From Streptomyces sp. NBC_01775 (GTDB lineage: Bacteria > Actinomycetota > Actinomycetes > Streptomycetales > Streptomycetaceae): 64,000 bases of DNA. The stretch is from assembly GCF_035917675.1 (NCBI RefSeq), contig NZ_CP109104.1, forward strand, positions 3,596,001 to 3,660,000. The letters run 5' to 3'. The position numbers and the translations under genes are program-made. The notes under the pieces are model-generated. The model searched no databases and was not told the DNA's origin. It worked only from the letters and a program-made list of their open reading frames with translations. Positions 39,116 through 50,357 of this stretch are shown in pieces; position 1 is the stretch's first letter; each line of letters starts with the position of its first letter.

Positions 39116-39310
39116 GCCCGCGACCTTGCCTCACGCGTTCACCGGCTGTCCACCGAATGAGGTTCTCCGGTTGTGCTGAGGTGGGTCGCGCCGTCCAGGC
39201 CACCCAGCCCAACCAAGCGGCTCAGCCCGGCCGCTCGGCCGCGCGGCCGTTTCCGGCACGCTTCGCGGCCCGGCCGCGTGGCGGGGGCCCTCGGTTCGGT
39301 TCCGTCCACG

Positions 39311-39412
39311 GGCAAGAAATTTTTCACACGGGCAAAGGAGAATTTCCTGTGTGATGATGACCGGCGGGGGTCATCCGGTGAGGATCCGGGTGGAACGGGG
39401 GAGGAACACGAG
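39311..39412 (+). promoter_or_regulatory. AT-rich leader of the Rhs locus
   Basis: An AT-rich patch (AAGAAATTTTTCACACGGGC, then GGAGAATTTCCTGTGTGATG) stands out in very GC-rich DNA and has CACAC and GTGTG in opposite orientation 20 bases apart. It probably holds the promoter for the two accessory genes and the toxin genes downstream. GGGGGAGGAAC is the ribosome binding site of the gene at 39413. Confidence 0.45.
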
Positions 39413-39940
39413 ATGTCGTTGCGTGAGTTGGTCCGCGACGAAGCGGTCGCGGGGATGACCCGGCCGGAGCTGCTGGCGGCGACGCGTTCCGCGCGACTGT
39501 ATTTCCAGCGGCCCGAGGAGCCGGGCTTCTTGGTGTCGGAGACGGTGGGCGGCCCGGTGGTGCCGGTCTTCACGTCCTGGGAGGGACTGGCGTTGTTCGC
39601 CGGTCCCTGCGAGTGGGCGTCGACGACGGTGTCGGATCTGATCGAGCTGCTGCCCGAGGGTGTGCGTGCGCTGGTGGATCCGTTGGGGCCGCGCGCGTTC
39701 GTGCTGGACGCGGACACGCTGCGGGAGCCGGGCGCGAGCGCGGGTGCGAGTGCGAACACACAGGCAGACGCCGACGCACGGGCGGACGCGAACACGCACG
39801 CGGACGCGGACGCGGGTGCCGACACGGGTCCGAGCGCGGACACGGGTCCCCGCGCGGGTGCCGACACGGGCGCGGGTGCGCGGCAGGAGTCGGGCGCGGG
39901 TTCGGAATCAGGCGCGGGTCCGGGTGGGGTGTCGGTATGA
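39413..39940 (+). CDS. SseB-like (SAV_915-type) accessory protein
   Basis: A 175-residue protein. Residues 1-105 resemble the SseB-like family often found beside streptomycete secreted toxins (LYFQRPEEPGFLVSE; PVFTSWEGLALFAG; LIELLPEGVRALVDPLG). The remaining 70 residues are a low-complexity alanine-aspartate-glycine-threonine tail (ADTGPRAGADTGAG). The stop overlaps the next ATG. GGAGG lies 10 bases before the start. The family function is not known; a role in secretion of the Rhs protein is an inference from context. Confidence 0.7.
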   Translation: MSLRELVRDEAVAGMTRPELLAATRSARLYFQRPEEPGFLVSETVGGPVVPVFTSWEGLALFAGPCEWASTTVSDLIELLPEGVRALVDPLGPRAFVLDADTLREPGASAGASANTQADADARADANTHADADAGADTGPSADTGPRAGADTGAGARQESGAGSESGAGPGGVSV

Positions 39941-40488
39941 CTGAACACCTGCGGGAGCCCGGCTCGAAGGGTGTGCAGCCGGGGGACGGCTACCGGGTGG
40001 AGATCGCCTCGTTGCGGCGGATCCTCAAGCCGTTGGAGGAGTCCGTGACCGCGGCGCGGAAGATCAAGAACGACTGGAAGCCGATGGCCGAGCACATCAA
40101 TCTGGCGGCCACCATGGACATCGTCACGCCGGCCGAAGACGTCCTGTCCAAGTGGGGGTTCGGCATGGGCCGGGTCGCCGAGCACACCGACACCGTTGTC
40201 GATACCCTCCAGGAGGTCATCGCCGCCTACATGCTCGCCGACCTGCTGCGCGTCAAGGACTTCGCTCCCACCGCGGACAACATCGCCAAACTGCCGTCCG
40301 GCGACGTCGGCCAGTGGGTGTGGGACCACGGCGCCCGCCCCAAGTTCGACCCGCCGCCGAAGATCTGGCAGGAACCCTGGCTGGACGATGACGGCACGAC
40401 GGTGACGGGGGATGTACCCACCAATCCCCGGCAGCGCGTCGATGGGACGTGGGAAGTGGACGGCGGCGGGGGCGGGACGATCGCTTGA
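39937..40488 (+). CDS. WXG-like helical protein, probable Rhs accessory
   Basis: A 183-residue protein with a helical N-terminal 120 residues (EIASLRRILKPLEESVTAARKI; LSKWGFGMGRVAEHTDTVV, given in part) similar to WXG100/ESX-type secretion partners, and a polar tail with PPPKIWQEPWLDDDG. It overlaps the previous gene by 4 bases (ATGA). Its TGA stop falls inside the right end of a TnpB element inserted after it, so its original C-terminus may be longer. It precedes the Rhs toxin gene and shares its WXG-like N-terminal character, so I see it as part of the same system. Confidence 0.65.
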   Translation: MTEHLREPGSKGVQPGDGYRVEIASLRRILKPLEESVTAARKIKNDWKPMAEHINLAATMDIVTPAEDVLSKWGFGMGRVAEHTDTVVDTLQEVIAAYMLADLLRVKDFAPTADNIAKLPSGDVGQWVWDHGARPKFDPPPKIWQEPWLDDDGTTVTGDVPTNPRQRVDGTWEVDGGGGGTIA

Positions 40489-40519: not shown

Positions 40520-41716
40520 CTACGGCTCGCGCCGTGGGGGTTTCTGCTTCATCGCCGGCTGCCCCGTCCGGGAGGACTCCCGTTGAGGTCTTACACCAGC
40601 TCCCCAGACAGACACCGCCAGCCCGGCGGCCAGAATGTTCTTCGCCGCATTCACGTCCCGGTCATGCACCGTGCCGCACTCACACGTCCGTGTACGGACG
40701 TTGAGCGGCAGCTTCGACCGGATCGTGCCGCAAGCACCGCACAGCTTCGAGCTGGGGAACCAGCGGTCGACGACCACGAGTTCCCGCCCGTACCACGCGG
40801 TTTTGTACCCCAACATCGTTCGCATGTCGCTCCACGCCGCGTCGGAGACGGAGCGGGCGAGCTTGTGGTTCTTGACCATGTTACGGACGGTCAGGTCCTC
40901 GATCACGACCGTTTGGTTCTCACGGACGAGCCGAGTGGTCAGCTTGTGGAGGAAGTCCCGGCGCCGGTCGGCGATCCGCGCGTGGACACGGGCGGCCTTC
41001 CGGCGGGCCCTGGCCCGGTTGCTCCCCTCTCCCTTTGCCTCGCGGGACAGTTCCCGCTGGGCCCTGGCGAGCCGGGCCCGGTCCTTGCGCTCATGTTTCG
41101 GGTTGGGGATCTTCTCTCCGGTGGAGAGCGTAGCCAGGGACGTGATCCCCAGGTCGATACCGACGGCACTCGTGGTGGGCGGGGCCGGGGTGATGGTGTC
41201 CTCGCAGAGCATCGACACGAACCAGCGTCCGGCCGCGTCCTGGGACACGGTCACCGCGGACGGCCGCGTGCCCTCGGGGAGCGGCCGGGACCACACGATG
41301 TGCAGCGGCTCGGCCATCTTGGCGAGGGTCAGCCTGCCCTCGCGGAAGCGGAAACCGCTGGTGGTGTACTCGGCACTCCTGTGGGACTTCTTCCGCGACT
41401 TGAAGTGCGGGTACTTCGCGCGCTTGGCGAAGAAGTTCGTGAACGCGACCTGCAAGTGCCGCAGCGTCTGCTGGAGCGGAACCGAGGACACCTCGCCCAG
41501 GTAAGCCAGTTCTTCGGTCTTTTTCCAGGCGGTCAGCAGCGCGGAGGTCTGGTTGTAGTTGACCCGCTCCTGCCGCGTTCACGCCTGCGTACGGGCCTCG
41601 AGCGCCATGTTGTAGACCTTCCGCACGCATCCGAAGGTACGCGACAGCTCAGCCGCCTGCGCGTCCGTCGGATAGAAGGTGTACTTGAACGCCCGCTTCA
41701 CATGGTTCGGGGCCAT
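40520..41716 (-). pseudogene. tnpB: TnpB RNA-guided nuclease with one internal stop
   Basis: The frame from ATG 41716 reads VKRAFKYTFYPTDAQ at the start, meets a single TGA at 41581-41579 (in ARTQA*TRQERVNY, where a tryptophan codon is expected) and continues uninterrupted to 40520. RuvC residues are intact after the stop: D in VGIDLGITSLA, E in VIEDLTVRNM, D in HDRDVNAAK. The zinc ribbon cysteines (CGACG, TCECG) are also present. A restart at ATG 41491 would give a 323-residue protein without the N-terminal wedge, so probably inactive unless the stop is suppressed. Confidence 0.88.
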
Positions 41717-41895: not shown

Positions 41896-44800
41896 ATGAC
41901 GCAGAAGGACGCGACCGAGGGCGGCACGGTCGAGCGGATACCTCCGCACGCCAAGCCGAGCGAGGTCATCTACGGCTCCCCCTCCAAGATCGACGACCTG
42001 GTCATCAAGCTCCTTGCCTACGCGGGTGCGTTCAAGGACGGCAACGCCAAGCTCGATGACCTCTCCCTGCTGGACTGGACGGGCGCCGGCTCGGAAGGCT
42101 TCATGGACGCCACCAAGAAGCTGCCCCGTGAGCTGGACTCGGCCCACAGCTACTTCACCTCCGCCGCCAACGCCCTGGACGCCTACGCCGACAAGCTGCG
42201 CTCGGTCCACAGACGGCTCAAGCCGATCATCGAGGACGCGGACGCCGCCCGGGCGGCGTCCAAGACGTACTGGGAGGACTACACCGCCTACAGCAAGGCC
42301 GTGGACGCCAAGGCGGACCCGCTGCCCAAGCGCCCCCCGGACGACGACCCGGGCATCGCCGCACTGGAATCCTGCTACGCGCGGCTCGACAAGCTGGAGA
42401 GCGAACTCGACGGCGTCATCGAAACCTCGAAGCGCAAGCTGGAGAAGGCCGCGGAGAAGGCTCCGGACAAGCCCAAGGGCTGGAAGGGCTGGAAGCAGCA
42501 CGGCAAGGACTACCTCAGCGGCGCGGGCGAGAGCCTACTGGGCATGTACGAGGGGTTCGATGACCTGGTCAACGGCGGCCCCGGCGGTGCCGGCCTCCAA
42601 CTGGCGGGAACGGCCGACGGCGCCGCCTACGCCGCCGCGCACCCCAAGGAGTTCGCCAAAGCGGTCACCAACTGGGAGGAATGGCAGCGCAACCCCTCCC
42701 GCGCGGCCGGGCAGCTCACCCCCGAACTTCTCCTCGCCCTGGCCTCCGGCGGCGCCGGCGCCCTGCGCAAAGGCGCCTCCGCCGCGAAGAACGCCGCCCA
42801 GCGCCTCGCCGGACGAGAAAGGGCCCTGCGTCGCGACGGCAGCGCCCGCGACCGCGTCGACGACGGCCCGGCGAATCCCGACACCTGCAAGGGCGACAAG
42901 TGCGAGGCCGGCGACCCGGTAGACGTCACCACCGGCGAGATGCTCATGTCCGCCACCGATGCCGACCTCCCGGGCGCCCTGCCCCTCACGCTGACCCGGG
43001 ACTTCGTCTCCGGCCACACCTGCGGCGGCTGGTTCGGGCCCACGTGGGCGGGCACTCTCGACCAGCGCCTCGAACTCGACGACCAGGGCGTCGTCTACGT
43101 CGCCGACGACGGCATGCTCCTCACCTACCCCGTCCCGCGGCGGGAGGAGCCCACTCTCCCGCGCTCCGGCCCGCGTTGGCCGCTGTGCTGGGACGGCAAG
43201 CCCGACGGCACGATGACGATCACCCAGCCGGAGCGGAATCGTACCCTCCACTTCGCGCCGCTGCCGATGGCCGGCCGGGAGCTTCCTCTCCGGGCGATCA
43301 CCGACCGCACGGGCGAAGGCGACCGCGTCACCTTCACCTACGACGAGCAGGGCACGCCCACCCGGGTCACCCACTCCGGCGGCTACCGCATCGCCGTCGA
43401 CACCGACCCCGCCCTGCACCGCGTCACCGCCCTGCGCCTCCTGCACGGCGACCAGCAGCAGCACAGCACCAAGCTCATCTCCTACGGCTACGACCAGGCT
43501 GGCGACCTCACCGAGGTCATCAACTCCACCGGCCTGCCCCTGCGCTACCGCTACGACGACCAGCACCGCATCACCTCCTGGACCGACCGCAACAACACCT
43601 CCTTCGCCTACGTCTACGACCACAGGGGCCGCGTCCTGCGCACCGTCGGCCCGGACGGGATGATGTCCGGCCGCTTCCACTACGACCAGGCAGCCCGCAC
43701 CACGCGTTACACCAACTCCCTCGGCCGCACGACGGCATACGTCTACAACGAGGCCCGCAAGGTCACCGCCGAGACGGACCCCCTCGGCAACACCACTCAC
43801 ACGGAGTGGGACGAAACAAACCGTCTCCGAACGGCCGTCACCGACCCCCTGGGCCACACCACCCGCTACACCTACGACGACGAGGGTCGGCTCACCGCGG
43901 TGGAGGGGCCCGACGGCAGGGTGACCGAGGCCGTCTACGACGACTGGGGCCTCCCCGTGGAGGTCCACGAGGCGAACGGCGCGGTGTGGCGCCACACCTA
44001 CGACGAGCGCGGGGCGCGGACCTCCACGACCGACCCGTACGAGGCCACGACGCGCTACACCTACGACGCACACGGCCACCTCGCGACGATCTGTGACCCG
44101 CTCGGTCACACCACCCAGGTCACCACGGACGCGGCGGGCCTCCCCGCCACCGTCACCGACCCGCTGGGCCACACCACGACCGTCCGCCGCGGACCGCACG
44201 GCCACGTGAGCGCCCTCACCGACGCCCTCGGCCGCACCACCCGTCACGGCTGGACCATCGAAGGCAGACCCGCCTGGCGCGAGACCCCGGACGGCGCCCG
44301 CGAGGAATGGAAGTGGGACGCCGAAGGCAACCTCGCCCAACACACCGATCAATCCGGCCACACCACCACCTACACCCACTCTCACTTCGACCTGCCCGTC
44401 ACCCGCACCGACCCCGACGGCGCGAACTACGCCTTCACCTACGACACCGAGCTGCACCTCACCCGGGTCACCAACGCACAGGGCCTTGAATGGCGCTATG
44501 AGTACGACGCGGCCGGCCGTCTGACCTCGGAAACGGACTTCAACGGCGCGACCTTCGCGTATGAACGCGACGCGGTCGGCGGGCTGCTCGCCCGGACGAA
44601 CGCACTGGGCGAAACGCTGCGCTACACGCGGGATGCGGCAGGCCGCATGGTCACTCAGTGTGATGAGTCGACCGGCGAAGAGACGACGTTCACCTACGAC
44701 GCGGGCGGCGCCCTCGCCCACGCGGCGAACGCGACAGCTCAGTTGACGTGTGAGTACGACCTGTTGGGCCGCTTGCTGGTCGAGACGGTCAACGGCCGCA

Positions 44801-46290
44801 CGACCACGTACGGCTACGACGCGACCGGCAACCGCACCCACCGCACCACCCCCTCCGGCCTGACCTCCACCTGGGCCTACGACCCGGCCGGTCTCCCCGC
44901 AACCCTGACCACGGCCGGCCACACCCTCACCTTCGGCCACGACGCGGCAGGCCGCGAGACCCGGCGCGCCCTCGCCGACCTCACTCTCTCCCAGCGCTGG
45001 GACGCCGCCGACCGCCTCACCGCCCAGACCCTCACCTCATCGGCCCCCGACCCCCTCCAGCACCGCACCTACACCTACCGCCCCGACGGCCACGTCACCG
45101 AGATCCGCGAACTCACCGCCGGCACCCGCCACTACGCCCTCGACCCCGTCGGCCGCGTCACCAAAGTCCAGGCCCACGGCTGGACCGAGACCTACGCCTA
45201 CGACACCGCCGGCAACCAGTCCCACGCCGAAGCACCGGGCCACCCGTCGCCCGGCGAACGCGAACACCAGGGCACCCTCATCCGCCGCGCCGGCCGCACC
45301 ACCTACGAACACGACACCGCCGGCCGCCTGACCCGCAAGACCCGCACCCTCCTCAACGGCCGGCTCCGCACCTGGACCTACGCCTGGAACGCCCAGGACC
45401 GCCTGACCTCCGTCACCACCCCCACCGGCCAGGCGTGGTATTACACCTACGACCCCCTGGGACGCCGCCTCACCAAGTCCGGCCCCGACGGACCCGCCCT
45501 CACCTTCGCGTGGGACGGGACACGCCTCGCCGAGCAGAGCACTCGCGACGGCACGGCGACAACGTGGGACCACGCCCCGGGAACCCACCGCCCCCTGGCC
45601 CAGACCGACCGCGAACCGGGCAGCACACGCTTCCACGCGATCCTCACCGACCTCACCGGCACCCCCACCGAACTGGTGGCGCCCTCCGGCGAGGTGGTCC
45701 GGCAGCACCGGACCACGCTCTGGGGCACCCCCCTCCCCTCCCCCTCGGGCGCCCTCGACTGCCCCCTCCGCTTCCCCGGCCAGTACGCCGACCCCGAAAC
45801 CGGCCTGCACTACAACTACTTCCGCTACTACGACCCGGAAACCGCCCGGTTCCTCACCCCGGACCCCCTGGGCCTCGCACCCGCGCCGGACCACCATGCG
45901 TACGTGGCGAATCCGCACGCGGAAATCGATCCGCTCGGACTTGCCGGATGCAAGGAAAAACCCAAGCTGAGCGACCGCAATCCCATTCCCAACAAAAAGC
46001 TCCGCCACGAATATGAAGAGGTCCTCGCGGGACGGGGCACACAACGCCCCGGCGACGCACCCGACGGGCTGGACTACTATTCGGCGGACAAACTGCCGCC
46101 CAAACAGCAGGCGCAGTGGAAGGATTCGGCTATCTACGACGTACCCGGCACACCGCACCGCGTGCTGAAACGCCCGGACGGGTTGATCGGATACGTCTGG
46201 AACCACGATTATTCCAAGCCCCGGCTGTTCCCCGCGCCCTGGTACAAAGACGGAGGAGACGTACCCAAGCTTCCCAAGGAGCAGCGTTGA
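41896..46290 (+). CDS. Rhs/YD-repeat polymorphic toxin with barnase-like C-terminus
   Basis: A 1464-residue protein. Residues 1-110 are a helical WXG-like export domain; about 338 marks DUF6531 (GDPVDVTTGEMLMSATDADLP); then more than 20 YD repeats (TYDDEGRL type) form the Rhs shell up to the core end RYYDPETARFLTPDPLGL and IDPLGLAG near 1345. The last about 115 residues are the toxin tip. WKDSAIYDVPG, HRVLKRPDG and WNHDYSKP line up with the barnase catalytic stretches (W-R-E, D-R-I-L, D-H-Y). TCGGAGG lies before the ATG. G+C visibly falls in the tip. The next gene overlaps by 4 bases and encodes a barstar domain. Confidence 0.9.
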   Translation: MTQKDATEGGTVERIPPHAKPSEVIYGSPSKIDDLVIKLLAYAGAFKDGNAKLDDLSLLDWTGAGSEGFMDATKKLPRELDSAHSYFTSAANALDAYADKLRSVHRRLKPIIEDADAARAASKTYWEDYTAYSKAVDAKADPLPKRPPDDDPGIAALESCYARLDKLESELDGVIETSKRKLEKAAEKAPDKPKGWKGWKQHGKDYLSGAGESLLGMYEGFDDLVNGGPGGAGLQLAGTADGAAYAAAHPKEFAKAVTNWEEWQRNPSRAAGQLTPELLLALASGGAGALRKGASAAKNAAQRLAGRERALRRDGSARDRVDDGPANPDTCKGDKCEAGDPVDVTTGEMLMSATDADLPGALPLTLTRDFVSGHTCGGWFGPTWAGTLDQRLELDDQGVVYVADDGMLLTYPVPRREEPTLPRSGPRWPLCWDGKPDGTMTITQPERNRTLHFAPLPMAGRELPLRAITDRTGEGDRVTFTYDEQGTPTRVTHSGGYRIAVDTDPALHRVTALRLLHGDQQQHSTKLISYGYDQAGDLTEVINSTGLPLRYRYDDQHRITSWTDRNNTSFAYVYDHRGRVLRTVGPDGMMSGRFHYDQAARTTRYTNSLGRTTAYVYNEARKVTAETDPLGNTTHTEWDETNRLRTAVTDPLGHTTRYTYDDEGRLTAVEGPDGRVTEAVYDDWGLPVEVHEANGAVWRHTYDERGARTSTTDPYEATTRYTYDAHGHLATICDPLGHTTQVTTDAAGLPATVTDPLGHTTTVRRGPHGHVSALTDALGRTTRHGWTIEGRPAWRETPDGAREEWKWDAEGNLAQHTDQSGHTTTYTHSHFDLPVTRTDPDGANYAFTYDTELHLTRVTNAQGLEWRYEYDAAGRLTSETDFNGATFAYERDAVGGLLARTNALGETLRYTRDAAGRMVTQCDESTGEETTFTYDAGGALAHAANATAQLTCEYDLLGRLLVETVNGRTTTYGYDATGNRTHRTTPSGLTSTWAYDPAGLPATLTTAGHTLTFGHDAAGRETRRALADLTLSQRWDAADRLTAQTLTSSAPDPLQHRTYTYRPDGHVTEIRELTAGTRHYALDPVGRVTKVQAHGWTETYAYDTAGNQSHAEAPGHPSPGEREHQGTLIRRAGRTTYEHDTAGRLTRKTRTLLNGRLRTWTYAWNAQDRLTSVTTPTGQAWYYTYDPLGRRLTKSGPDGPALTFAWDGTRLAEQSTRDGTATTWDHAPGTHRPLAQTDREPGSTRFHAILTDLTGTPTELVAPSGEVVRQHRTTLWGTPLPSPSGALDCPLRFPGQYADPETGLHYNYFRYYDPETARFLTPDPLGLAPAPDHHAYVANPHAEIDPLGLAGCKEKPKLSDRNPIPNKKLRHEYEEVLAGRGTQRPGDAPDGLDYYSADKLPPKQQAQWKDSAIYDVPGTPHRVLKRPDGLIGYVWNHDYSKPRLFPAPWYKDGGDVPKLPKEQR

Positions 46291-47018
46291 GCACCCAGCA
46301 CGCCGCGTACGTCCTGCACTCCGAGGATCTGGAAAGCGACCTGTACGCGATCCAGGCGGTGGCGGGTTTCTTCGGGAGCGAGGACGAGCATTCCACCTTC
46401 CGCGCAACGCGCTGCGCGCGCTTGACGGAACCTCCGGTCCCCTCCGCCCACGAAGCGCTGGAACTGCGCGTCCTCGACCGGACCGGTCAGCCCGTCGCCG
46501 CTTATACCATCGGTGGCGCGGAAATCGCCGAAGAGGCGGAACACGACGGTCTGGTCGACCTCCGCGTCACGGGATATCTGTGGGACACCCCCCGCGCCGG
46601 GACGGATGAGATCTGGGCCCTGTGGCGGCAGTCCGGCGGCCTCGGGCGCGGTGCTTGGTCCGGTTTCTCCGAAGAGGGGAGAGAAGCCTGGATCGATGCG
46701 GCCAGGCTCTGCTCCGTCTGGCGATTCCCGCACCCCGTGGCGGCGGATTCAACCGGTGAGTTCGAGCTCGACGGCAGCCATGTCACCGACCCCGCGGGCC
46801 TCTACTGCGCCCTGGGCGAAGCGTTGAACGGCCCCGGAGGCTACTACGGCGCCTCGTTGGACGCCCTCAAGGACTGCCTGCGCGGTGACTTCGGCCCGGT
46901 GGCCCCCTTCACCCTCACCTGGCACCATTCCGCCACGGCCCGTACCCACGTCCCCGAGACCCTGGACAGAGTCCTGCGCGCCCTGCACGCGGCCGGGGTG
47001 ACGACGCTTCTGCGCTGA
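46287..47018 (+). CDS. Barstar-domain immunity protein
   Basis: A 243-residue protein. I chose TTG 46287 because AAGGAG lies 6 bases upstream and the start overlaps the Rhs stop (TTGA). The C-terminal 90 residues match barstar: LDGSHVTDPAGLYCALGEAL, then YYGASLDALKDCL, which corresponds to the barstar YYGENLDALWDCL segment including both key aspartates (the tryptophan is lysine here), and PFTLTWHHS. The N-terminal 150 residues form an extra domain I do not recognise. It should bind and inhibit the RNase tip of the upstream toxin. Confidence 0.88.
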   Translation: MSTQHAAYVLHSEDLESDLYAIQAVAGFFGSEDEHSTFRATRCARLTEPPVPSAHEALELRVLDRTGQPVAAYTIGGAEIAEEAEHDGLVDLRVTGYLWDTPRAGTDEIWALWRQSGGLGRGAWSGFSEEGREAWIDAARLCSVWRFPHPVAADSTGEFELDGSHVTDPAGLYCALGEALNGPGGYYGASLDALKDCLRGDFGPVAPFTLTWHHSATARTHVPETLDRVLRALHAAGVTTLLR

Positions 47019-47101: not shown

Positions 47102-48394
47102 TTATCGAGGACTGACGGCGTTGCCGATGCGGTCCAGGATCAGGGGGGTCGCCGTGAAGGATTCCGACGGGCCGGTCTCGATGCCGCCCTCCAGCGCCGC
47201 CTCCGCGTAGGCGAACGCCTCCGGGGTGTCCGTGTGCAGGGTCAGCAGCGGCGCCCCCGCCGTCACCTGGTCGCCGGGGCGGGCGTGGAGTTCGATGCCC
47301 GCGCCCGCCTGGACCGGGTCCTCCTTGCGGGCGCGGCCCGCGCCCAGGCGCCAGGCGGACAGGCCGACGGCGTAGGCGTCCAGGCGGGTCAGGACGCCTG
47401 TCGACGGCGCCGGGATCACGTGGCGCTCCCGCGCCCTGGGCAGCTCCGCGTCGGCGTCACCCCCTTGGGCGGTGACCATTTTGCGCCAGGCGTCCATCGC
47501 GGAGCCGTCCGCGAGGGCCTTCGCCGGGTCGGCGTCCGGCAGGCCCGCCGCGTCCAGCATTTCGCGGGCGAGGGCGACGGTCAGCTCGACGACGTCCGCC
47601 GGGCCGCCGCCCGCCAGGACCTCCACCGACTCGCGGACTTCGAGGGCGTTGCCCGCCGTCAGGCCCAGCGGGGTGTTCATGTCCGTCAGCAGGGCGACGG
47701 TCCGTACGCCGTGGTCGGTGCCCAGCTCGACCATCGTCGCCGCCAGTTCCCTGGCATCGGCCACGTTCTTCATGAACGCGCCGGAGCCCGCCTTGACGTC
47801 CAGTACGAGCGCGCCCGTGCCCTCGGCGATCTTCTTCGACATGATCGAGGAGGCGATGAGGGGGAGGGATTCCACCGTGCCCGTCACGTCGCGCAGCGCG
47901 TACAGCCGCTTGTCGGCGGGGGCCAGGCCGTCGCCCGCCGCGCAGATGACGGAGCCCACGTCGCGCAGGACGCCCATCATCTCCGCGTTGGTCAGCGAGG
48001 CGCGCCAGCCGGGGATGGACTCCAGCTTGTCGAGGGTGCCGCCGGTGTGGCCGAGGCCGCGGCCGGAGAGCTGGGGGACGGCCGCGCCGCAGGCGGCCAC
48101 CAGCGGGGCCAGCGGCAGGGTGATCTTGTCGCCGACGCCGCCGGTGGAGTGCTTGTCGGCGGTGGGGCGCGGCAGCGCGGAGAAGTCCATGCGCTCACCG
48201 GAGGCGATCATCGCGGCTGTCCAGCGGGCGATCTCGGTGCGGTTCATGCCGTTGAGGTAGATCGCCATGGCCAGCGCCGACATCTGTTCGTCGGCCACCG
48301 CGCCGCGCGTGTAGGCGTCGATGATCCAGTCGATCTGCTCGCCGGTCAGCTCGCTGCGGTCCCGCTTGGCGCGGATGACGGAGATGGCGTCCAT
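47102..48394 (-). CDS. deoA: Thymidine phosphorylase
   Basis: A 430-residue enzyme that splits thymidine (and deoxyuridine) with phosphate into base and deoxyribose 1-phosphate. It has the DKHSTGGVGDK motif near residue 80, SGRGLGHTGGTLDKLE, MSKKIAEG and VKAGSGAFM, all hallmarks of the family. AAGGAAG precedes the ATG at 48394. It lies 78 bases after cdd on the same strand, last gene of the nucleoside operon. Its product feeds the DeoC step. Confidence 0.95.
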   Translation of the reverse strand: MDAISVIRAKRDRSELTGEQIDWIIDAYTRGAVADEQMSALAMAIYLNGMNRTEIARWTAAMIASGERMDFSALPRPTADKHSTGGVGDKITLPLAPLVAACGAAVPQLSGRGLGHTGGTLDKLESIPGWRASLTNAEMMGVLRDVGSVICAAGDGLAPADKRLYALRDVTGTVESLPLIASSIMSKKIAEGTGALVLDVKAGSGAFMKNVADARELAATMVELGTDHGVRTVALLTDMNTPLGLTAGNALEVRESVEVLAGGGPADVVELTVALAREMLDAAGLPDADPAKALADGSAMDAWRKMVTAQGGDADAELPRARERHVIPAPSTGVLTRLDAYAVGLSAWRLGAGRARKEDPVQAGAGIELHARPGDQVTAGAPLLTLHTDTPEAFAYAEAALEGGIETGPSESFTATPLILDRIGNAVSPR

Positions 48395-48472
48395 GGTGTC
48401 TTCCTTTCAGCGGTAGCGCGGGTGCCGCCCAGTGGGGCGGACGTGCGCGCCCGGCGCGACGCCGCGTCGCGT

Positions 48473-48865
48473 TCAGCGCGGCAGTTGTTCGGGGCCGAAC
48501 GCCTCGGTGAGCAGTTCGGCCAGCGGGCGTACCCCGGAGGGCGCCTCGATGAGCAGTTCCGGCCCGCCGTGTTCCCACAGCAGCTGGCGGCAGCGCCCGC
48601 AGGGGGCGACGACCCGGCCGTCGCCGCCGACGCAGGTGAAGGCCGTCAGCCGGCCGCCGCCGGTGGCGAACAGGGCGGAGACCAGGCCGCATTCGGCGCA
48701 CAGGCCGAGCCCGTAGGAGGCGTTCTCCACGTTGCAGCCGGTGACGGTGCGCCCGTCGTCGACCAGCGCGGCGGCACCGACCGGGAAGCCCGAGTAGGGC
48801 GCGTAGGCCAGGGTGAGGGCCTCTTGTGCCTGGGCCCGCAGGGCCTCCCAGTCGGGCTCGGCCAT
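48473..48865 (-). CDS. cdd: Cytidine deaminase
   Basis: A 130-residue tetrameric-type cytidine deaminase that turns cytidine and deoxycytidine into uridine forms. Zinc-binding motifs CAECGLVSAL and PCGRCRQLL are present, with VTGCNVENASYG. I chose ATG 48865, with AGGTG upstream; GTG 48877 is an alternative. The left end of an intact TnpB element begins about 28 bases upstream, so cdd and deoA may have lost their original promoter or are driven from within or beyond the element. Confidence 0.94.
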   Translation of the reverse strand: MAEPDWEALRAQAQEALTLAYAPYSGFPVGAAALVDDGRTVTGCNVENASYGLGLCAECGLVSALFATGGGRLTAFTCVGGDGRVVAPCGRCRQLLWEHGGPELLIEAPSGVRPLAELLTEAFGPEQLPR

Positions 48866-48892
48866 GTTCACGTTCACCTGATTTCTTCGAGG

Positions 48893-50357
48893 ATGCCCCG
48901 TCCTTTAGTGCGGGGAGGAATCGGACTCCTGCCGAGCAGCGTAGGGGAAGCCCGGTCGCCGTCAGGGCAATCCGGCGTGTGTCCCGAGCGGTGGCGAGGC
49001 AGCCCATAACGATCGCGAGCTCTCAACTGTCAGTCCTCCCGGCTAGGTTGGTGTTCATGGCGACGCGAGCACAAATGGGCGAGGGTGCCGGGCATGCCCG
49101 GTGGACCTTCCGTCTGCGTGTGTCGTCGACCGCGCTTGCCGCGCTGATGGGCGAGTGGGACCGGTGCCGGTGGATCTGGAACGAGTGCTGCGCCAAGTCC
49201 AGGCAGACGCATCTGTGGAACAGGCAGCGGCCGGAGGGCGTCGATAAGCAGACGTGCGGCCCGGCGCAGCTGGACAGGATGCTGAGCGAGGCTCGCGCCG
49301 CGAACACCTGGCTGCGTGAGGGCAGTTCGGTTGTGCAGCAGCAGTTGATCCGCGACTTCGCCAGGTCCCGCGCCAAGGCCCAGAAGGACATCACCGACCG
49401 GCTGCCGGTGCGGCAGCGCGCCGGAATGCCGAAGTACAAGAAGAAGCGCGAAGCGCGGCCGTCCCTGAACTACACCAGGCGCGGCTTCCGTCTCAAGGGC
49501 GGCCGTCTGCACCTGGCGGGCGGCATCGTCTTGACGCCTGTGTGGTCGCGGGAGCTTCCGGCTGCCCCGTCCAGCGTGCGTGTCTATCAGGACAGCATCG
49601 GTCATTGGTACTGCTCGTTCGTCGTCCCTGCCGAGACTCAGCCGCTCCCTGAGACGGGTGCGGTGATCGGTATCGACTGGGGCGTGAAGGAGACTGCGAC
49701 CACCACCAGCGAGGACCACGACCTTCCCCACACCCAGCACGGAAAGAAGGCGGCGGCGGGGCTCGCCCGCTACCAGCGGATGATGAAGCGCCGTGAGCCG
49801 AAGCGGGGGAAGCCCGGATCGAAGGGATACCGCCGGGCGAGGAAGCTGACGGCGAAGCTGTACAAGAAGACCGCCCGGCAACGCCAGGATATCGGGCGCA
49901 AGTGGGCCAAGTCCGTGGTCCGCGACCATGATGCCCTGGCTGTCGAGGACTTCAGGCCGAAATTCCTCGCGAAGTCCACCATGGCCAGGAAGACCGCTGA
50001 CGCTGCCATCAGCGCGACGAAGACGGCCCTGGTCGAGATGGGCCGCAAGCACGGCAGGGCCGTGCATCTGGTCCACCCCGCGCACACCACGATGGACTGT
50101 GCGCAGTGCGGAGCGAGAACCAAGCACGCACTACCACTTTCCGAGAGAACGTATGCCTGCACCGCGTGCGGAGCCGTATCCCCCAGGGACAAGAACTCCG
50201 CCCGCGTGATGCTGGTCCGGGCTGGTCTCAACCCGGCTGGTGCTGATCGTGGAAGTCCAGGCGGGGCGCAGCCCCCTCTGGCAGCGTGAGCCAGAAATCC
50301 CCACATCAGCCCTGAAGAGTGAGGAACCCCCTCCCTTCAGGGAGGGGAGGATTCAAG
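48893..50357 (+). mobile_element. TnpB element (IS605 type), copy 2, intact
   Basis: The left end (48893-48940) has a CCCCG/CGGGG hairpin and AGGAATCGGACTCCTG, shared with copy 1. The right end (50320-50357) has CCCCTCCC-TTCA-GGGAGGGG and the terminal TCAAG. It carries only tnpB, no tnpA, and lies in opposite orientation between the nucleoside importer genes and cdd. Confidence 0.8.
49057..50289 (+). CDS. tnpB: TnpB RNA-guided DNA nuclease
   Basis: A 410-residue protein with complete TnpB architecture: N-terminal wedge and helical part (WTFRLRVSST; RWIWNECCAKSRQTH), KKKREARPSLNYTRRGFRLK, then RuvC with D in IGIDWGVKETATTT, E in LAVEDFRPKF, and D in SPRDKNSARV. The zinc ribbon is CAQCGARTKH and CTACGAVS. 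All catalytic residues are present, so it should be an active nuclease guided by an RNA made from its 3' end. I chose ATG 49057; the longer open frame is non-coding. Only distantly related to copy 1. Confidence 0.9.
   Translation: MATRAQMGEGAGHARWTFRLRVSSTALAALMGEWDRCRWIWNECCAKSRQTHLWNRQRPEGVDKQTCGPAQLDRMLSEARAANTWLREGSSVVQQQLIRDFARSRAKAQKDITDRLPVRQRAGMPKYKKKREARPSLNYTRRGFRLKGGRLHLAGGIVLTPVWSRELPAAPSSVRVYQDSIGHWYCSFVVPAETQPLPETGAVIGIDWGVKETATTTSEDHDLPHTQHGKKAAAGLARYQRMMKRREPKRGKPGSKGYRRARKLTAKLYKKTARQRQDIGRKWAKSVVRDHDALAVEDFRPKFLAKSTMARKTADAAISATKTALVEMGRKHGRAVHLVHPAHTTMDCAQCGARTKHALPLSERTYACTACGAVSPRDKNSARVMLVRAGLNPAGADRGSPGGAQPPLAA

Follow-up and report, generated by a model that had tools for sequence, protein, structure and literature searches.

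A predicted barnase-like Rhs toxin tip and its two-domain barstar neighbour in Streptomyces sp. NBC_01775

The window examined here (64,000 nucleotides of Streptomyces sp. NBC_01775, positions 3,596,001 to 3,660,000 of contig NZ_CP109104.1) carries an Rhs polymorphic toxin gene that is followed by a gene with a barstar domain. Barnase and barstar form the textbook enzyme-inhibitor pair, and the locus raises the question of whether the C-terminal tip of the Rhs protein is an RNase of this kind, and the neighbouring product its inhibitor. Very probably, the two genes form a toxin-immunity pair of the interbacterial kind, in which an RNase-fold Rhs tip is matched by a two-domain barstar inhibitor. 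Gene structure, homology, conservation, linkage of the partners and purifying selection are directly supported, and the folds are predicted; export, RNA cleavage, the way in which the partners bind and the task of the inhibitor's N-terminal barrel are inferred.

A divergent RNase-type tip

The tip is about 110 residues long and begins after the DPLGLA core end. Structure prediction of residues 1350-1464 had been proposed as a check by an earlier, sequence-only reading of this DNA, and the resulting AlphaFold model most resembles RNase Sa2, RNase Sa and barnase. Among the structure matches listed, all 50 of 50 are microbial RNases, with middling Z scores, and the match spans tip residues 13-100; as modelled, the tip adopts the microbial RNase fold. 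The companion check, a profile search against known toxin domains, returned no matching Pfam or NCBIfam model. In Pfam no family was found at E up to 10, PF00545 and Ntox50 included, and NCBIfam, PADLOC and the PDB sequences gave no real match. One search gave weak rows for cryptochrome/photolyase chains (E 0.4-0.46), and another gave rows for TIM barrels of designed origin (E 0.02 and 0.081).

Three protein searches for relatives of the tip gave 6, 11 and 22 matches (the query is counted in the first two), and the relatives include Rhs proteins of Paenibacillus, Actinorugispora and Streptomyces. They split into a sister group with the motif D-H-Y, one tip of which matches no Pfam family and gives one weak PDB row, and an H-x-Y group that contains the window; P0010 (H-N-Y) and P0011 (D-H-Y, otherwise H-x-Y-like) branch between the two. 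A profile of the whole family is collinear with the PF00545 RNases across its E-Y-x-V and DHY regions, and places the family's E onto the E of HEYTV in Streptomyces RNases. Taken alone, the window's own clade or the H-x-Y rows align with these RNases in the wrong register, so the link from tip to PF00545 is stated as transitive. The model and this transitive link support a barnase-type fold, and the tip is placed in the microbial RNase superfamily, on a divergent branch. It is not classed as a canonical N1/T1 RNase because the general-base Glu and a Pfam match were both looked for and neither was found.

In a tree of 38 rows the window's tip belongs to a clade of five (the window clade, support 100/100) that lies within the H-x-Y group; the branch leading to it is long, at 0.96 changes per column. 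This tree carries a long-branch warning for P0022; a 35-row tree that omits it recovers the same clade. The second tree holds 31 of the 38 rows (seven were omitted beforehand) and four rows of a third lineage described below, is rooted by midpoint, and has long branches.

Profile matches to the tip at E 1e-5 or better occur in at least 10 of 392 genomes of the genus, at least 15 of 394 of the family, and at least 1 of 396 of the phylum, that one being the window's own, which is included in all three counts. These are lower bounds, since the genome searches scored the best first-look candidates (12 per genome for the tip, 26 for the N-terminal domain of the immunity protein). With the latter domain as query, tips came to light at L062, L063, L067 and L068, whose genomes had yielded none in the tip profile search of the genus. 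The Paenibacillus tip, used as query against plasmids, had no match, and of the viral contigs 11 stretches fit a pattern, none of them confirmed as a tip relative.

An active site without the general-base glutamate

In canonical barnase Glu73 (Glu54 in RNase Sa) is the general base, Arg87 binds phosphate and His102 (RNase Sa His85) is the catalytic His. The tip has the catalytic His and phosphate-binding Arg of the PF00545 RNases: R1422 and H1437 sit in columns that do not vary across alignments of 25, 38 and 35 rows, and the Trp and Tyr of the tip are kept alongside them. The general-base Glu is absent from the window clade: all five of its rows show Ile in the E73 column, and the remaining 33 of 38 show Glu.

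From the blocks WKDSAIYDVPG (46117-46149), HRVLKRPDG (46156-46182) and WNHDYSKP (46198-46221), the sequence-only reading had derived a barnase-like divergent RNase, with E73 present as Asp and the order D-H-Y changed to H-D-Y. The fold survives, through the model and the transitive profile link, and the two residue assignments fall. The Asp in question (Asp1415) lies two residues past the E73 position, out of register, and is also present in Glu-bearing H-x-Y rows. A swap of D-H-Y is likewise rejected: the invariant His is followed by D, N or R within the H-x-Y group (D in 5/5 window-clade rows) and by a gap in D-H-Y rows, so the His is retained and H-D-Y arises by insertion of one residue behind it.

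A third, distant tip lineage (L014, L030, L092 and L095), which has H-N-Y, was found by profile and by a reciprocal search, which also matches the window's tip (E 9.9e-4). Its E73 column reads V, I, I and I, respectively. On the 35-row tree the non-Glu state needs two changes (support 100/100 for the window clade, 99/96 for the third lineage). With a midpoint root and long branches, two independent losses are favoured, though not proven, by the Glu of the PF00545 RNases. In all four loci a single gene family of about 190 residues lies downstream, its products matching one another at pairwise BLAST E of about 8e-20 or better; against the immunity protein of the window, BLAST gave nothing meaningful (best E 0.32). 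Pfam scans of three of the four products left two without a match and one with a sub-threshold hit (E 0.023). Judged by sequence, the third lineage appears to pair with a non-barstar immunity-like family.

The preferred explanation is that the RNase Sa/barnase-like tip most likely kills by cutting RNA through the conserved His and Arg, and that in the window clade, with Ile for the catalytic Glu, the chemistry or substrate is probably unlike that of barnase. A refinement overlapping with it, tenable but short of probable, is that the barnase-like fold carries a site remodelled to suit a different reaction or substrate, such as that of a BECR-type tRNase, with Asp1415, Asp1438 or His1421 acting in place of the Glu together with the invariant His. 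The absence of Glu from two separate lineages, the uniform Asp after the His in the window clade, and a His before the Arg in 14/14 H-x-Y rows all fit such a site, and BECR toxins that cleave tRNA by other residues are known (PMC12700104). However, all three candidate residues also occur in Glu-keeping relatives, so none is a dedicated replacement, and the His before the Arg is absent in 4/4 rows of the third lineage. Carried further, and as tentatively, the Glu-less barnase-fold toxins may be two separate Streptomyces lineages, both active via a rebuilt site, one held by a barstar with an Hcp/tail-tube-like barrel and the other by the unrelated and undescribed family of about 190 residues.

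It is unlikely that the window-clade tip lost catalysis along with the Glu and is now inactive or a decoy, with the immunity gene as a relic. The uniform Ile and the long branch of the clade do point in that direction, and weigh against an active toxin. Selection was measured between four window-clade loci, giving six pairs, with synonymous sites near saturation for dN/dS. For the tip, pN/pS is 0.12-0.28 in all six pairs and dN/dS 0.05-0.14 in the five where it is finite; for the immunity gene the values are 0.33-0.56 (six pairs) and 0.18-0.36 (finite in three). The window-clade tip is thus under purifying selection, which argues against a dead domain. The retained R, H, W and Y speak against loss as well, as do the immunity gene kept in 4/4 window-clade loci having DNA context, and the third lineage, with Ile or Val in the same place and another immunity family. 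If the tip is active, as preferred here, a lineage with the His, the Arg and the barstar but without the general base would reveal which parts of the active site are needed by the inhibitor and which by killing.

The two-domain barstar partner

The gene downstream of the tip may begin with TTG at 46287, which gives a four-base overlap with the end of the Rhs gene; AAGGAG (read by eye) precedes this codon at 46276-46281. That this gene ends in a barstar domain had been seen from the sequence, and Pfam agrees (PF01337, E 9.9e-15, 54.7 bits against a cut-off of 23.4), as does the structure model, in which the domain has the barstar fold; profile and model together support a barstar-type inhibitor next to the tip. 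The barstar DxxxD motif is present as D192 and D196. In barstar, D39 enters the barnase active site; D196, which we take to be its equivalent, occurs in 20/20 immunity rows. Through this Asp the barstar domain would plug the active site of the tip and protect the producer.

The N-terminal domain ahead of the barstar, which had been called new, does exist but is not unique, recurring with the tip in the same 21 of 25 loci that are described below. Four of its residues (W110, W113, W124 and W135) are invariant in 20/20 rows. The model weakly suggests an Hcp-like barrel: none of the Hcp-type rows passes Foldseek E 0.001, identity to those listed is 14 per cent or less, and PilZ-type barrels score about 6 too. 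This conserved barrel may add a binding surface or serve another function. No description of an extra domain on barstar was found in searches of the open-licence PMC literature; it is a conserved addition to barstar whose role is testable.

A two-domain barstar gene lies downstream of the tip in 21 of 25 distinct loci (the 30 from tip searches, L002-L031, of which L002 is the window, minus 5 duplicates). The four without it are L014 and L030 of the third lineage, L019, with no barstar gene within 1497 bases, and L020, where the tip frame is broken and 488 bases remain. A search with the N-terminal domain in 150 genomes of the genus gave matches in at least 47, with 56 rows listed and 30 loci fetched. 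Of the listed rows, the strongest 13 (E 4.6e-39 or better) include 11 with a tip upstream; one is the L008 locus, known from the tip search, and the other 10 came from the N-domain loci. L070 and L072 are the two without a tip; at L070, where the immunity frame is broken and a transposase-like open reading frame (ORF) was seen by eye beside it, the gene is a decayed copy. In the 18 loci fetched for weaker rows (L074-L091) the stretch contains no tip; these are Streptomyces barstar fusions with open frames of 237-591 residues (stop to stop) and a more divergent N-terminal domain. Of the 30 loci fetched, 28 encode this domain and barstar in a single frame; the other two are L070 and L087, the latter continuing past the end of its stretch.

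Because the order of Rhs tip and barstar gene is preserved in other Streptomyces, the pairing exceeds chance. A single PF00545 RNase and another barstar are indeed encoded elsewhere in the genome, but the linkage in both directions and the four-base overlap in the window make it highly improbable that the barstar gene is a general inhibitor of secreted host RNases, adjacent to the tip by chance.

Rhs gene, surroundings and known systems

The Rhs protein combines RHS/YD repeats (23 stretches in a Pfam scan), a core end, a variable tip and a downstream immunity gene, as polymorphic toxins of this type do (Table 1). By sequence, its N-terminal signal domain marks it as a putative substrate of a type VII secretion system (T7SS), by which it would most likely be exported. 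Rhs proteins free their C-terminal tip after the core end, and here release would follow DPLGL.

Table 1. Positions of the toxin and immunity features within the window.
Feature	Position	Strand	Basis
Rhs polymorphic toxin gene, 1464 residues	41896..46290	+	ORF list, Pfam, NCBIfam
Putative T7SS secretion signal domain PF21725, residues 20-193	41953..42474	+	Pfam, E 1.6e-21, 77.7 bits
DUF6531 (PF20148), residues 339-411, RHS repeats after	42910..43128	+	Pfam
Rhs-associated core TIGR03696, residues 1276-1349, ends at DPLGL	45721..45942	+	NCBIfam, 72.2 bits
Toxin tip, predicted barnase/RNase Sa-like fold, residues 1350-1464	45943..46287	+	AlphaFold model, after core end
Ile1413, at barnase E73 / RNase Sa E54 position	46132..46134	+	Alignment column, profile alignment
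Arg1422, barnase R87 equivalent, invariant	46159..46161	+	Alignments
His1437, barnase H102 equivalent, invariant; Asp1438 inserted after	46204..46206	+	Alignments
Immunity gene, TTG start overlapping Rhs stop, 243 residues	46287..47018	+	ORF list, Pfam, linkage
Immunity N-terminal domain, predicted beta-barrel and helices, fold matches about residues 4-141	46287..46727	+	Model
Barstar domain PF01337, residues 159-236	46761..46994	+	Pfam; D196 codon 46872-46874

IS605 OrfB/TnpB-type genes (PF01385 with a Cas12f1-like TNB domain) flank the toxin locus: the one at 40520-41491 (-) immediately precedes the Rhs gene, and the other is at 48826-50289 (+). Directly downstream of the locus, on the opposite strand, are genes for a pyrimidine nucleoside phosphorylase and a cytidine deaminase, 47102-48877 (-). 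An ORF with an SseB N-terminal domain (39173-39940; PF07179, 22.8 bits, barely above the cut-off of 21) is followed by the ORF 39613-40488, where the stretch 39901-40485 is without a Pfam match; these two are possibly a helper pair ahead of the Rhs gene.

Searches of the open-licence PMC literature, covering titles, the openings of abstracts and selected passages, turned up nothing on this tip family, on an E73-lacking barnase-type toxin or on a two-domain barstar. The general kind is already known: Tox-Barnase tips with Imm-Barstar were described by Zhang et al. 2012 (PMC3482391), and the locus resembles them in having an RNase-type tip on an Rhs protein with a barstar immunity gene behind it. 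The available portion of that paper makes no mention of an extra immunity domain or of a clade in which Ile stands in place of the Glu. Its Tox-Barnase residue list ('H, H, [ST], FP, [STD]') may cover the H-x-Y lineage of the window, and it also names Imm-Barstar next to a different toxin, Ntox21. The Bacillus subtilis pair YxiD-YxxD, whose toxin is an Ntox50 BECR-fold tRNase (PMC12700104), is similar as a BECR-fold polymorphic toxin with an occluding immunity protein, but is set apart, by that description, by its own conserved His and Lys and HxVP motif, and the Pfam Ntox50 model misses the tip. Unlike Hcp and tail-tube proteins, from which it differs as given above in identity and Foldseek score, the N-terminal domain is fused here to barstar. 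With RNase Sa, Sa2 and barnase (PF00545) the tip shares its predicted fold and the active-site Arg and His, and it differs from them in lacking a Pfam match, in having Ile for Glu and one residue after the His, and in its C-terminal FPAPWYKDGG segment.
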